This document shows positions 6,066 to 24,693 of a DNA stretch of 27,308 nt, in pieces (within the stretch, counting starts at the first letter, position 1; each line of letters begins with the position of its first letter). The stretch covers positions 1 through 27,308 of IMG/VR virus record IMGVR_UViG_3300021197_000393. One strand, written 5' to 3'. Position numbers and translations under genes: made by a program. Source of the stretch: a virus. The notes under the pieces were generated by a model. The model did not search any database. It saw nothing but the letters and a program-made list of their open reading frames with translations, and was not told the DNA's origin.

Positions 6066-7688
6066 TTATGAAATTCTAACACATAAACTGGAAACAGAAG
6101 TGCTAAAGATTGCTCCCATAACTCTCCATGTACCAGAAGGTCTAGTGCCAGATGATGTTGTACCACTAAATGAACAAAACAATAATCCTGTATTGTTTCC
6201 ATTTTGTGAAAACGTACCACCCGGACTGATTGTTGTTTGATATTGATTATTTATAGCTCCATAAGAACCAACTGTATTTATTGTACTATTAGGATTACCA
6301 TCAGGACCTGTAGGACCTGTTGGACCTGTTGGACCTGTACCTCCTGCTGATCCTGTTGGACCTGCCGGACCCGTAGGACCTGTAGGACCTGTTGGACCTG
6401 TAGAGCCATTACTTCCATTATTTCCTGCAGGACCTGTTGGACCTGTTGGTCCGGTAGGACCTGCTAAAGATGCATTTGTAATTGTTCCCTTTACCCATGC
6501 TGACGCAGTGGTATCATAAACTGCAAGTAAGTCTGCTCCTTGAAAAGATGTAGTTGTACTAAGACCAGTTAAAGAAGAACTTACATTCGCTGTATCAGTA
6601 ACATCTGCACTTGCTTCAACACCATCTAGTTTAGTACCATCTGTAGCAACATCTCGACCATCTACAGTTCCACCTACCACAACGTTTCCTGTTAAGGTAA
6701 CATTTCTAAGTGATGCCACATCTTTATTTGAATCTACTGTAACTACTTTACTTGCTACAACTGTACCTACAGATGCACCTGTGTCACTGTAGTTAAGTTC
6801 TGCCGCTGTAGCACTAACTGTTGTACCATTTATAGATAAGGCATCTGTTTCTAAAGTACCATTAACATCTATATCACCTTCAAGGTCAATATCACTATTT
6901 GCAACTATATTACCTGTAACAGTCAAGTTTCCAGCTATAGTTGGATTATTCTCTATTTTTGCACCTGTTACAGCATCGTCAACAATAGAAGCAGTGACTA
7001 CAGCATTTGCAGCTAACTCATCTGCTCCTACAGCATCGTCTGCTAACATAGAGTTTACTACCTTTGTAGCACCAATTGTAGTTACTCCACCGTTTGTCAT
7101 TGTTACATCGCCTGATAATGCTGCCGCTGTAAAACCTGTTCCATCACCTATGAGTAACTGTGTGTCTCCAACTGCTTTTGCAGAAACAACACCTGAACTA
7201 TTAGCATCCCTAACTAGCACTGAATTTGCACCTTGGTTTGCTATCTTTGCTAACGTAACCTGTGCGTCTGCAATGTGAGCAGTATCAATAGAACCATCTA
7301 CGTAGTGTTCTGAATTAATTGAGTCATCAGCTATCTTTGTACCATCAACAATGTCAGCGGCTAAGTGTGCTCTATCAATAGAGCCATCTACATATTGGTC
7401 ACTATTTATAGAATTAGCAGCCATCTTCGCAACAGTAATGTTAGCATCTGCTATTTTAGCTGTGGTGACGTTGGCATCCGTTATCTTAGCTGTAGTCACT
7501 GCATCGTCAGCTAAACCTGCTGTAGCAATGAGTGGTCCTTCGCCTGTTGTTCCATCATGTGAGTGTCCACTACTACCATTAAAGGCAGATTGAACTGCAT
7601 CAAACTCACCATCGAGGTCTGATGCGTTAATAACGTTACCATCAGCTATATTGTTTGATGAATCGTTACGAGTATATCCTGTTCCCAT
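6066..7688 (-). CDS. Collagen-like tail fibre protein, 540 aa
   Basis: The N-terminus contains [12 protein letters not shown] near residues 42-53, common in phage fibre attachment domains. Residues about 55-250 hold repeated short beta turns (DANVTTAKI and similar) including a duplicated block ending YVDGSID, as in beta-helical fibre shafts. Residues about 250-400 resemble structural beta-repeat stems ([20 protein letters not shown]). A run of 19 uninterrupted Gly-X-Y triplets follows (bases 6291-6461). A 74-residue C-terminal tip, ending [10 protein letters not shown] and CVRIS, probably trimerises and binds receptor. AGGAG precedes the start. The assembly protein and two dioxygenases lie just downstream. 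Confidence 0.9.
6291..6461 (-). repeat. Collagen Gly-X-Y tract, 19 triplets
   Basis: Nineteen consecutive Gly-X-Y triplets lie within the tail fibre gene, mostly GPT and GPA. Thirteen have proline in X, one (GNP) has proline in Y. The DNA shows it as near-tandem nine-base repeats, so slippage could change its length. A triple helix here would make a stiff rod before the receptor-binding tip. Confidence 0.93.
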
Positions 7689-10298: not shown

Positions 10299-11498
10299 CT
10301 ATGCAGCTGCTCTACGTTCAGCAGTAGTATCTTGTCTTGGTACGTATACAACTCTTTTTCTATCGTAATCATTTGCAACAAAGTTAAAAGTAACTCCTGT
10401 TGCTGTTATAATACCTGCAGTAGATGTTCCTACTGCTGAAGTGATACGATGTGTATTGCTATGTGTTATTGTGTCATTTATAACACCTGTAGCTGAAACT
10501 GAGTTAAGTCTTTCTTGTACATCGATTTCAAAACCATTTACTTGTACAGACTCTACAGTTGTAGTTCCTTGAACACTTCCTAAAGAATAGGTATTACTGT
10601 GTGTTAGTATACCTATTGCACCTGTAGCTACTACACTAGATAGTGCTTCTGAAGTGGTTATTTCAGGTGTACCTATAGCAACTGTTGCTACTACACCACT
10701 TATAGGCTCATCTACGTTAGGTTTAAGTGTACCTATTGCACCTGTAGCTACTACAGAAGCAGAAGATATAAACGTAAATGCTTTTGCAAAAGGTCTATCA
10801 CCTTTATTAAGTGTAGAAGTTCCAACAACACTTGCAATAGAATGTGTGTTACTGTGTGTTAATGTTCCAATACTACCTGTCGCATTCACACCAACTACAG
10901 GTTCTGTTGGATTAGGTTTTATTGTTCCTAAAGCACCTGTAGCAGACACACCTGTAATTAGTTTTGGTATAGTTTGAACTTGACCTATTTGACCTGTAGC
11001 TGAAACACTTAATAAGCGTTCAGATACATCGACTTCAAATTGACCACCTACTTGTACAGTAGCAATAGTACCTACTAATTCAAAGCTAGGAAGATTAATA
11101 GTTGGTGAAACGTTACCATATCTAGCTGAACCATACCTACCTGTTCCGTATAAAGCATCATTAGCACCAAAAAATGCTTGAGCAAAAACAGTACCTATTG
11201 CACCTGTAGCAGATACACCTGTAAGTGCTTCTGCAGGGTTTTCAGATACTATATTTACTAATCCTGTTGCTGAAACAGAACTTAGTGTTAAACTAGAATC
11301 ATTAACAGCAGTAACAGTTCCAATTTGTCCTGTAGCACTAACACCTGACAGCGTTACACTAATAGTAGCATTAACAGCAGTTATCTGTCCTGTAGCACTA
11401 ACAGACCCTAAAGATATGATTGGAGTTATGACACCGAAAGAAGCAGTACCGTATTCTCCTGAACCATATATAGCATCATTAGCACCGTAGAACGACAT
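10299..11498 (-). CDS. Tandem beta-repeat virion protein, 399 aa
   Basis: Nearly the whole protein consists of about 15 copies of a short repeat, roughly SVSATGxIGTV followed by a 10-20 residue linker, some degenerate (SVVGTSTL, SVQGTTTV). A YG-rich module (YGANDAIYGSGEYGTASFG) at the N-terminus is duplicated near residue 113 (FFGANDALYGTGRYGSARYG). The last 25 residues are charged and end in Ala. Such repeats build beta-solenoids or strings of small beta domains, fitting a virion surface or tail protein. It lies between two capsid/tail-adaptor genes. No cysteine and no catalytic motif is visible. Repeat copy number probably varies between relatives. Confidence 0.75.
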   Translation of the reverse strand: MSFYGANDAIYGSGEYGTASFGVITPIISLGSVSATGQITAVNATISVTLSGVSATGQIGTVTAVNDSSLTLSSVSATGLVNIVSENPAEALTGVSATGAIGTVFAQAFFGANDALYGTGRYGSARYGNVSPTINLPSFELVGTIATVQVGGQFEVDVSERLLSVSATGQIGQVQTIPKLITGVSATGALGTIKPNPTEPVVGVNATGSIGTLTHSNTHSIASVVGTSTLNKGDRPFAKAFTFISSASVVATGAIGTLKPNVDEPISGVVATVAIGTPEITTSEALSSVVATGAIGILTHSNTYSLGSVQGTTTVESVQVNGFEIDVQERLNSVSATGVINDTITHSNTHRITSAVGTSTAGIITATGVTFNFVANDYDRKRVVYVPRQDTTAERRAAA

Positions 11499-22065: not shown

Positions 22066-22307
22066 CTAAATCTCGCCGCTTTTGAAGCAATCTTTTTGGG
22101 CTGCTTAGATACTTGTCTACCTGCTCTAGTTGCTTTGCGTTTAGCAGCCGTAGAGGCGGCGTATTCTTGGGGAGAAAGAGCCTTAATTGCTTTTTCAGGT
22201 AGATAACGTTCACCGGTAGCTTTTGACCCTTGTGTACTAGGTTTACCACTTTTAGTTCTCCACTTTTGTTTTGTCCAATTTGCTAGTGATTTTTGTGGTG
22301 CTCTCAT
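22062..22307 (-). CDS. Small basic phage protein (DUF5872-like), 81 aa
   Basis: The start MRAPQKSLANWTKQKWRTKS, the middle GERYLPEKAIKALSPQEYAA and the end KQPKKIASKAARFR match a small, very basic protein I know from many marine phages, probably the DUF5872 family. ATG 22307 follows AAGGA. Its first 56 bases overlap the end of the DUF1289 gene in another frame, and its TGA overlaps the 41-aa gene start. The basic charge and WTKQKW segment suggest nucleic-acid binding, but no function is established for it. Confidence 0.72.
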   Translation of the reverse strand: MRAPQKSLANWTKQKWRTKSGKPSTQGSKATGERYLPEKAIKALSPQEYAASTAAKRKATRAGRQVSKQPKKIASKAARFR

Positions 22308-22392
22308 ATGCTTCCTTTATTTGTTCTATTGTTCTAAAGCATCCTATACATATATTACCTTGTAATTTACAAATGCCCACACAAGGACTCAA
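22252..22392 (-). CDS. DUF1289 zinc/iron-binding-like protein, TTG start, 46 aa
   Basis: The TTG start at 22392 overlaps the previous stop as TTGA and follows GGGAAG. The protein begins SPCVGICKL, then CIGCFRTIEQIKE, which is the DUF1289 pattern: C4-x3-C8-x6-C15-x2-C18 followed by the Arg-Thr and Glu-Ile/Gln-Ile helix. Bacterial DUF1289 proteins usually start with the same SPC motif, so the TTG start makes sense. The four cysteines likely bind zinc or an iron-sulfur cluster. DUF1289 function is not known. Two genes of about 80 and 150 aa flank it; it fills what otherwise looks like a gap. Confidence 0.82.
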   Translation of the reverse strand: MSPCVGICKLQGNICIGCFRTIEQIKEAYESTTKITSKLDKTKVEN

Positions 22393-22832
22393 AATCTTCC
22401 CATCCATTTGCCTGCTGCCCATGCTAACAAACCTGCAAAGAATACTATAATAATAAAACCTACACTATATCCTACGTATTCTAATATCTCTTCTCTGCGT
22501 TTTTCTGCCATCTTTTCCTGATAGCGTCTAGACTTTCTTGCTTCAGCTTGGAACTGTTGCCAATCTTGCCAAAGTCCGGGTCTGCCTAGATATATCATTA
22601 TCTTCTTGAGTTCTTCTTCTTTTTCTTTTATCTGCTCAAGAGCCATAAACTCTTCTAAGTCTCCACCACCTATGCCTTTAGCTTTTTTCTTTTTGAGACT
22701 TTTTTCTATAGCTTCTTTAGAAAATACAAAATCTGATATTTGTTTAGCACAACCTGAAAGTTCTTTACCATTGGATATAAAACTCTTGATAACACCAAAG
22801 GCTGCATTTGCTGCTGCGAGTTCTGCTAACAT
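22389..22832 (-). CDS. C-terminally anchored coiled-coil membrane protein, 147 aa
   Basis: An Ala-rich start is followed by a charged coiled coil (about 42-115, with EKSLKKKKAK and LEQIKEKEEELKK) and one membrane segment at about 120-141 (GYSVGFIIIVFFAGLLAWAA) with a short Gly/Arg end. The YLGRPGLWQDWQQFQ block near residue 81 is one I know from marine phage homologues. Type II or tail-anchored topology is likely, with the coil inside. A virion, lysis-timing or superinfection role is possible; none is shown. AAAGGA precedes ATG 22832. Confidence 0.75.
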   Translation of the reverse strand: MLAELAAANAAFGVIKSFISNGKELSGCAKQISDFVFSKEAIEKSLKKKKAKGIGGGDLEEFMALEQIKEKEEELKKIMIYLGRPGLWQDWQQFQAEARKSRRYQEKMAEKRREEILEYVGYSVGFIIIVFFAGLLAWAAGKWMGRF

Positions 22833-23173: not shown

Positions 23174-23356
23174 TTATCTTTTCCTTCTTGGCTTACAATA
23201 TGCTGTTATCTTTAGATTAGGTCCTTCCTGTTTTGGAATTGAAGGTTGCTTGTGTAATCTTTCTGCAAAATACAAGCATCTATCTATATCATCAAAGGTT
23301 TGTGTTTGGTCTACTACTCTTAATCCCATCATAAACACTAACACAAACTCAATCAT
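23174..23356 (-). CDS. Small N-terminally hydrophobic two-cysteine protein, 60 aa
   Basis: The first 12 residues are hydrophobic (IEFVLVFMMGL), as in a signal or membrane-anchor segment. The remainder has two cysteines, C27 and C54, and a basic C-terminus ending KPRRKR. A 70-aa protein encoded at 26361-26573 has the same layout with C33 and C58, so the two look like divergent paralogues. The start overlaps the stop of the 8-cysteine gene by eight bases. It could be exported and form a disulfide. Function unknown. Confidence 0.65.
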   Translation of the reverse strand: MIEFVLVFMMGLRVVDQTQTFDDIDRCLYFAERLHKQPSIPKQEGPNLKITAYCKPRRKR

Positions 23357-23462
23357 TTCCTTTCTCTGCTACTTGCTCCTCGTGACATTCACAGTTACAC
23401 TCATCACAATCACAATCGTAACATTCACAAGTCTCACATCTATTTTTTGTTTTTTCTGTCAT
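23349..23462 (-). CDS. Metallothionein-like 8-cysteine peptide, 37 aa
   Basis: ATG 23462 follows AAGGA by six or seven bases, opening 37 codons that fill an apparent gap. Residues 9-26 hold eight cysteines spaced C-x2-C-x-C-x2-C-x-C-x2-C-x-C-x-C followed by H27, with Glu and Asp in between (for example CETCECYDCDC). This density is typical of metallothionein-like metal clusters for zinc, copper or cadmium. It overlaps the preceding gene by 23 bases and the next by eight, in step with neighbouring junctions. It could buffer metal or be a redox sponge. The reading frame is well supported; the function is inferred from composition alone. Confidence 0.72.
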   Translation of the reverse strand: MTEKTKNRCETCECYDCDCDECNCECHEEQVAEKGND

Positions 23463-23742
23463 GTGCTTTCCTTAGTTGTTCTTTTGCTATTCTTGCAAGT
23501 CTTGCTTGTTCTTTCTTCCCAGATACCTTGGCTCGTTGTTCAAGGACTGTAAGGATTTGTATCTTTCTCGCATACGGTTTATTGATTCTTTTAACTTTTG
23601 CAATGGTTTCTTTGGCATCTGCGACTGTGGCGAACTTGATGCTAACTGTGTCTTTAGGATTTTCATCTGTGTATAATCGCCTGTCACTTCCTTTTGGTTT
23701 TTTACCTGTGCCAACTTTAGGGTCTCCCTTCTTCTTTGCCAT
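23440..23742 (-). CDS. Basic protein, 100 aa, conserved in marine phages
   Basis: The N-terminus KKKGDPKVGTGKKPKGS and RRLYTDENPKDTVSIKF, followed by VKRINKPYARKIQILTVLEQ, is a pattern I recognise from many marine phage genomes. The protein is strongly basic and helical, with a Lys/Arg-rich C-terminus. Nothing enzymatic is visible. Such proteins might bind DNA in the virion or act early in takeover. The start overlaps the upstream stop by one base (TAATG), and its end carries the ribosome site of the 8-cysteine peptide. Confidence 0.72.
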   Translation of the reverse strand: MAKKKGDPKVGTGKKPKGSDRRLYTDENPKDTVSIKFATVADAKETIAKVKRINKPYARKIQILTVLEQRAKVSGKKEQARLARIAKEQLRKAHDRKNKK

Positions 23743-24035
23743 TATCCTCTGTATCCACCACCTGCTGCTTTATAGGCTTTGGCAACCATCTGTGCTTTTC
23801 TTGCACTCCATTGACCGGGTGAACCCCCTTTACCACCTGCTTTGATACGGTTGAATATTTTCTTACGCATGGTTGGTTTAGTGTAATTACCTGCACTATT
23901 TACGGTACTCCCCCCACTTTTTAGCTTTAAAGTTGATAAAGACTTAGCTTGACTAGCGTGACTCTTACTAGCCTTCTTTAATCCTTTAATTACTTTTTTT
24001 ACTACTTTTCTTGCCTGTGGCTTTTTTGTTGGCAT
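23742..24035 (-). CDS. Small basic DNA-binding-like protein, 97 aa
   Basis: ATG 24035 (MPTKKPQARKVVKK) is favoured over ATG 24047 because GAGG sits at a good distance before it. The first 60 residues are Lys/Arg/Ser-rich. The C-terminal 25 residues, SPGQWSARKAQMVAKAYKAA ending GGGYRG, are a motif widespread in marine phages, probably a small nucleic-acid-binding module. It overlaps the previous gene by 50 bases. The motif also occurs as the C-terminus of other phage proteins, so this may be one carrier of a mobile module. Confidence 0.7.
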   Translation of the reverse strand: MPTKKPQARKVVKKVIKGLKKASKSHASQAKSLSTLKLKSGGSTVNSAGNYTKPTMRKKIFNRIKAGGKGGSPGQWSARKAQMVAKAYKAAGGGYRG

Positions 24036-24693
24036 CTCTATCCTCATATAAGTTATTAAATGTGGTAAATGGGTCTAGATAAGATTCATGTGACTCTGCT
24101 GAATGTAACCATTGCGATGGTGCAAAGTCAGGTGCTCCTTCTCCTGTAACCCATAGAGCAGGACTTGTAGCTCTTACTCTGTTATTTGGCAGTGCAACAA
24201 TGTTGCCTGTCCATTTTCCTGCATCCAACAAGTACATCACGTGTGACTGTTTATGTTGTGCAGGGTCATCTGCTATGTCACTGTCTGTATAATCAACAGT
24301 AAACATATACTTAGCTGTATAGAACTCATTGCCTATCTTACATAACCAAGGACTAGAACTTACTCTGTCCATAACTATGATGCTATGATTTCTTGATTCA
24401 CAATCCCAAGGTTGACATAAGTGGTCTTCCATTGGTTCTGCCCATTCATCTACAGGTATATCGGCTACTAGTGCTTGTATAGGCATCCTTGCCCACATTG
24501 CACCACCGTGTACATTCTCTTCTTCTGTACAACCTGTGAAGACTACCTGAAAACTTAGTGACCTATCAGGTATGGTATTGACTGCGAAAGCTAGTGCGTG
24601 TAGGTATTCACCGTGATAATTCATATGATTACAAGTGAACTCCTTACGTACCCAACATTTAAAATGTGGTACGTTACTTATAAGATATGACAT
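23986..24693 (-). CDS. Conserved hypothetical protein, 235 aa
   Basis: The N-terminal part SYLISNVPHFKCWVRKEF and HGEYLHALAFAVNTIPDRSL is a pattern I associate with a large conserved family in marine phages with no assigned role. The protein has several Cys and Trp/Phe residues and an acidic, beta-rich middle (MPIQALVADIPVDEWAEPM), then a low-complexity, basic C-terminus. No catalytic motif is evident. The start shares one base with the stop of the upstream gene. It lies in the block of small basic proteins and is the largest globular protein there. Confidence 0.7.
   Translation of the reverse strand: MSYLISNVPHFKCWVRKEFTCNHMNYHGEYLHALAFAVNTIPDRSLSFQVVFTGCTEEENVHGGAMWARMPIQALVADIPVDEWAEPMEDHLCQPWDCESRNHSIIVMDRVSSSPWLCKIGNEFYTAKYMFTVDYTDSDIADDPAQHKQSHVMYLLDAGKWTGNIVALPNNRVRATSPALWVTGEGAPDFAPSQWLHSAESHESYLDPFTTFNNLYEDRDANKKATGKKSSKKSN

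Follow-up and report, generated by a model that had tools for sequence, protein, structure and literature searches.

A cysteine-rich open reading frame (ORF) of 37 codons in a marine phage sequence is strongly supported, by comparison with its relatives, as a real conserved gene with a metal-ligand-like pattern of conservation. With a probability of about 55%, we read this ORF as encoding a metallothionein-like phage peptide, small and acidic, which would serve as a metal and thiol buffer, or as a donor or chaperone, late in infection. By analogy with characterised systems, the peptide most likely works like a metallothionein; judged by its sequence, it lies outside the described metallothionein families and would constitute a new family of small proteins whose chemistry is of a familiar kind.

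The peptide gene and its overlapping neighbours

The window (the whole stretch of DNA analysed, 27,308 bases) has a terminase region that matches HMO-2011-type phages, namely Roseobacter phages CRP-345 and CRP-1 and Puniceispirillum phage HMO-2011. The features considered here are as follows.

23349..23462, minus strand: Cys-rich peptide gene, 37 aa, MTEKTKNRCETCECYDCDCDECNCECHEEQVAEKGND, identified by its frame and its relatives
23382..23438, minus strand: 19-residue putative ligand core C-x2-C-x-C-x2-C-x-(C)-x2-C-x-C-x-C-H, with 7 Cys and the His invariant in 71 of 71 relatives
23406..23408, minus strand: codon of the fifth cysteine (residue 19), in relatives T, V, I, K, D, M, Y, S, A, P or E
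23174..23356, minus strand: downstream ORF and candidate partner, 60 aa, two invariant Cys, predicted beta-beta-alpha-beta fold
23440..23742, minus strand: upstream neighbour, 100 aa, lysine-rich, with a sub-threshold RRM_3 match; its last 23 nt overlap the start of the peptide gene
22389..22832, minus strand: 147-aa ORF, often next after the peptide and partner genes in relatives matching a window gene
22252..22422, minus strand: DUF1289 protein with four Cys (PF06945, E=1.6e-9), sometimes in the same block

The peptide ORF carries the motif C-x2-C-x-C-x2-C-x-C-x2-C-x-C-x-C-H, with eight Cys and one His at residues 9–27, and the composition of its 4.3-kDa product is acidic (predicted pI 4.3). 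The ORF shares its first 23 nt with the upstream ORF and its last 8 nt with the downstream one, which leaves an apparent gap of 83 nt between the two neighbours. A first-pass annotation had described the 37-codon frame, its overlap with both neighbours, and the eight Cys plus His within 19 residues, all of which are indeed present. It had also pointed to an AAGGA ribosome site, which exists in the window but is not conserved, as most relatives have AAAGA there. Likewise, every Cys of its proposed pattern is found in the window, but the fifth is dispensable in relatives. Stops or unconserved cysteines in related phages, which it had listed as evidence that would speak against the gene, were checked for, and the gene withstood this check.

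Among 60 first-order Markov resamplings of the window, none contained 8 Cys in 19 residues (ATG ORFs of at least 30 aa), and the highest count, seen once, was 7. Conservation among relatives is far stronger evidence for the reality of the peptide than these shuffles.

Conservation of the cysteine and histidine positions

A direct protein search with the peptide in the phage collection yielded no match, for which low-complexity filtering is possibly to blame, and DNA patterns were therefore used for the family search. A DNA search with the peptide gene itself returned chance-level matches only. Pattern scans of IMG/VR recovered at least about 200 contig stretches with the peptide family. The scan on Cys spacing alone gave at least 120 matches, mostly CTG-type repeats read as Cys, which were removed by inspection; among the matches listed were 19 clean genes, and all 19 have T, Y, and H at identical positions. 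The family-specific scan gave at least 95 distinct peptides, two of these being repeat artefacts. When only the first half of the motif was searched for, the second half was also present in 136 of 136 genuine family members, and searching for the second half recovered the first in 128 of 129 (the exception is cut by a contig end); these half-motif counts pool loci fetched earlier via the full motif and are not wholly independent.

The Cys codons were fixed by the search patterns, so the unbiased test of conservation is a sample chosen through the downstream gene. We gathered 80 loci by this gene without reference to the peptide. The peptide is present in 71, while three loci are cut off at contig ends and six lack it, with the endolysin directly abutting the downstream gene in these six. 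C1, T, C2, C3, Y, C4, C6, C7, C8, and H are invariant in all 71 peptides. The fifth Cys (C5), by contrast, is replaced in 14 of them by any of eight residue types (T, M, V, Y, K, S, D, or A). Scanning for the seven-Cys form retrieved 79 stretches, and eleven residue types occur overall at the fifth-Cys place. On a tree of the downstream 600 bp, the state of this position changed at least 19 times, a figure that recombination may inflate.

The peptide core is under purifying selection: pN/pS is 0.10 over the 19 residues and 0.21 in the columns left free by the search patterns. Third codon positions hold most of the variation in the DNA alignment of the core, and both TGT and TGC occur at every Cys position of the family. 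The alignment of the peptide gene revealed no conserved RNA structure, and no Rfam family was found for the region, with all matches far below the gathering score.

A scan for relatives without the conserved T identified a divergent subgroup of four contigs (L504, L505, L506, and L507; example SQCEDCKCENCECTECECECHNEKTDED), which are HMO-2011-type phages with terminases 80–81% identical. Their peptides retain eight Cys and the His, have lost both T and Y, and follow the same upstream gene family as in the main group. The usual downstream gene was not found in these contigs, in a search without a positive control that makes the absence weak. Across the divergent subgroup and the main group, the residues that selection preserves everywhere are seven Cys and one His, that is, eight putative ligands. 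In these same contigs, the divergent peptide is followed by a further short ORF with several Cys (NTFKPCAGCKTPTACRKANACLLGKKGIKHKH) and then by a 22062-like gene.

Gene neighbourhood, phage groups, and database searches

In 104 of 105 distinct contexts, the gene after the peptide is the same one; the remaining context is a truncated contig. The peptide stop either overlaps the start of this gene or is no more than 15 nt away from it in each of the 157 contexts with a start found. A Shine-Dalgarno sequence for the downstream gene within the peptide tail was also considered; a simple test was positive in just 65 of the 157 contexts, and we therefore limit the claim to the overlap. The beta-beta-alpha-beta prediction for the 60-aa downstream protein is confident (AlphaFold2 pLDDT 88.6). 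The protein matches no known family, and a fold search retrieved no solved relative, only weak matches to uncharacterised viral proteins. It may be the partner of the peptide; the two genes also occur apart. In one lineage (L080, L117, L218, and similar), the peptide frame extends about 20 codons over the downstream start in an alternative frame, with the tail HHNDRVSTDLHDR... The upstream gene varies: across the 105 distinct contexts, it is the 23440 gene in 45, an endolysin in 33, and a phrog_17747 gene in 17.

The peptide is found mainly in HMO-2011-type marine phages, with a single occurrence in a phage whose terminase is unrelated. The abstract of PMC9038755 portrays HMO-2011-type phages as dominant in the ocean and broadly distributed there. 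Contig G001 (52.8 kb; L494–L496) carries the peptide, and two contigs from other datasets concur at 99.7–99.9% identity. Neither the terminase nor the coat protein of the window has a match in G001, whose own terminase shares 39% identity with the one from Pelagibacter phage HTVC023P. G001 and the HMO-2011-type loci have in common a block of about 750 bp with 80–91% DNA identity, which starts within 16 nt of the start codon of the peptide. This common block suggests that the peptide block has been exchanged between phage groups. In HMO-2011 itself, a distant homologue of the downstream gene adjoins a phrog_17747-like gene, without the peptide. The peptide was not found in 13 cultured or named relatives searched in full, and no cultured carrier phage was found.

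Searching 84,980 bacterial and archaeal species genomes with the family pattern gave no match, and a looser Cys pattern in the same genomes picked up one larger metallothionein-like protein (Agitococcus) and otherwise just repeats and Cys-rich proteins that are unrelated. For 45 peptide members, no metallothionein model in Pfam or NCBIfam matched at E<=10, a result in which HMMER composition filters may hide weak matches. The only matches to any family in these two libraries, one in each and each for one of the 45 members, were judged to be chance: RiPP-family TIGR04135 (E=0.47) and the phage zinc-binding family PF24128 (E=3.3). No PDB chain matched the family in sequence, and the window peptide, the one member searched against PHROGs v4, had no profile match at E<=1. 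A search of open-licence papers found no paper on a phage metallothionein, and the words cysteine, metal, and DUF1289 led to no mention of the peptide ORF in PMC9038755.

Proposed function and alternatives

The peptide would be disordered without metal and would fold round soft metal ions via seven obligatory Cys and one obligatory His. AlphaFold2 gave no confident fold for the metal-free peptide (pLDDT 60), which is what is expected if folding is metal-dependent. We propose soft-metal binding because of the chemistry of published metallothioneins, in which Zn is bound in clusters by Cys and His (PMC10612145). Eight obligatory ligands would be enough for two tetrahedral Zn(II) sites, or for a compact Cu(I), other thiolate, or mixed cluster, and the optional fifth Cys would be a ninth ligand. 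Since the gene sits with lysis, packaging, and structural genes, the peptide is probably made late in infection, and in the infected cell it would act as a metal and thiol buffer, a metal donor, or a chaperone. The features by which metallothioneins are broadly recognised (small size, high Cys content, C-x-C and C-x2-C) are all present, with 8 Cys in 37 residues and four C-x-C in 4.3 kDa. A wider reading of the sequence data, which we offer only tentatively, is that this is a common and previously undescribed viral metallothionein: a minimal two-site zinc/copper peptide of abundant marine phages, encoded by the first gene of a transferable block, through which the metal pool of the bacterial host would be controlled during late infection.

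The fixed spacing and, in the main group, the T and Y are stricter than a pure thiol sponge needs and may point to a specific partner or a structured site. The peptide could be a very small C7H zinc module, a structured zinc-binding adaptor rather than a buffer, with a specific protein or nucleic acid of the phage or the host as its target; the downstream product may be this partner. Eight invariant ligands would suit two discrete tetrahedral sites, the ligand spacing never varies, T and Y are invariant in the main group, and the downstream gene is constant in 104 of 105 contexts. However, the divergent subgroup has no detectable downstream gene and no T or Y, so neither is essential. The downstream gene is also found without the peptide, and 19 residues leave little room for a two-zinc domain that has a hydrophobic core; we consider the adaptor unlikely. 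A thiol redox buffer or oxidant sink, with metal binding incidental, would draw on the high Cys content, the negative charge, the oxidisable cysteines, and the two Fe-dependent oxygenases of the contig, but it would need neither a fixed His nor fixed spacing, and it fits poorly with one Cys position being freely lost and seven never, which makes it improbable.

It is highly improbable that the ORF is a leader peptide, in which translating the Cys run would control the downstream gene by coupling or by stalling in cysteine shortage. Such a role would account for the position of the 3' end, which overlaps the downstream start or is at most 15 nt from it in all 157 contexts where that start was found, and for the conserved tail variants AEKGND and VQGVPV, which reach or enter that start. 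The idea is weakened by the divergent subgroup, which holds the ligands with no downstream gene detected, and by the free choice of TGT or TGC at the Cys codons. Furthermore, the core-to-stop distance varies widely, no conserved RNA structure is seen, and the His is invariant. A leader or attenuator would be marked by a fixed regulated downstream gene, which was not found in the divergent subgroup, and by conserved RNA or codon elements, which were not seen in the family. That the frame is no gene but arose by chance, or as a by-product of an antisense ORF (23250..23552, plus strand), is scarcely credible. The frame is short, it overlaps both neighbours, and the antisense ORF is present, but purifying selection acts in the peptide frame, the antisense frame is interrupted by stops across the core in 44 of 103 relatives, and the peptide is conserved despite unrelated upstream contexts; a non-gene reading is refuted by this conservation.

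The metallothionein-like reading can be set against described families. The bacterial metallothioneins SmtA, BmtA, and PmtA are about 55 residues long. Like the phage peptide, SmtA/BmtA of cyanobacteria and PmtA of Pseudomonas are small and Cys-rich, with several C-x-C and with His among the likely ligands (PMC10612145); the phage peptide differs in having just 37 residues, with all putative ligands packed into a contiguous stretch of 19, without a part recognisable as a zinc finger, and with no Pfam or NCBIfam match. It therefore lacks the separated ligand groups of the BmtA/SmtA type, and the zinc-finger-like fold of that type was not seen in a metal-free prediction, which cannot reveal a metal-dependent fold. 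For the metallothioneins of eukaryotes, and for short domains from plants such as the Zn2Cys6 gamma domain of wheat Ec-1, similar metal-thiolate cluster chemistry would be expected from clustered C-x-C and C-x2-C (PMC10612145), whereas the peptide has seven to eight Cys and one His and no sequence relation to them in the PDB set. The candidate metallothionein of Agitococcus lubricus (63 aa; L326:7629-7820, plus strand) contains C-x2-C-x-C-x2-C-x-C-x2-C-x-C-x-C like the peptide; unlike it, this protein has many more Cys, and its 8-Cys stretch is followed by Cys rather than His. We found no evidence of common descent between the two.

Should HMO-2011-type phages produce a peptide that holds metal, the zinc, copper, or iron pool would change in some of the most common marine bacteria when they are infected, and metal would be freed by lysed cells in peptide-bound form. 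The peptide would also be a small viral metal-thiolate module, whose natural seven-Cys and eight-Cys variants offer a ready test of the role of each ligand. Very short overlapping phage genes can be widespread and strongly conserved, yet missing from the family libraries searched here.

Other metal-related genes occur in the window and in this phage group. Two 2OG-Fe(II) oxygenases are encoded in the window, and the first-pass annotation had connected the peptide with these iron-dependent enzymes and with the DUF1289 gene; the identities hold up, but the link to the peptide is one of co-occurrence only. HMO-2011-type phages are reported to carry the metal-related accessory genes iscU and erpA (Fe-S biogenesis; PMC9038755), whose products are unrelated to the Cys-rich peptide. 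Elsewhere in the window, the ORF at 23986-24693 (minus strand) matches phrog_3704, which is annotated as "ferredoxin"; the sequence is unlike one, and this annotation may be wrong. A 399-aa ORF at 10299-11498 (minus strand) has many "VSATGxIGT"-like repeat units and is probably structural, and a 540-aa ORF at 6066-7688 (minus strand) has a collagen-like stretch and is probably a tail fibre.
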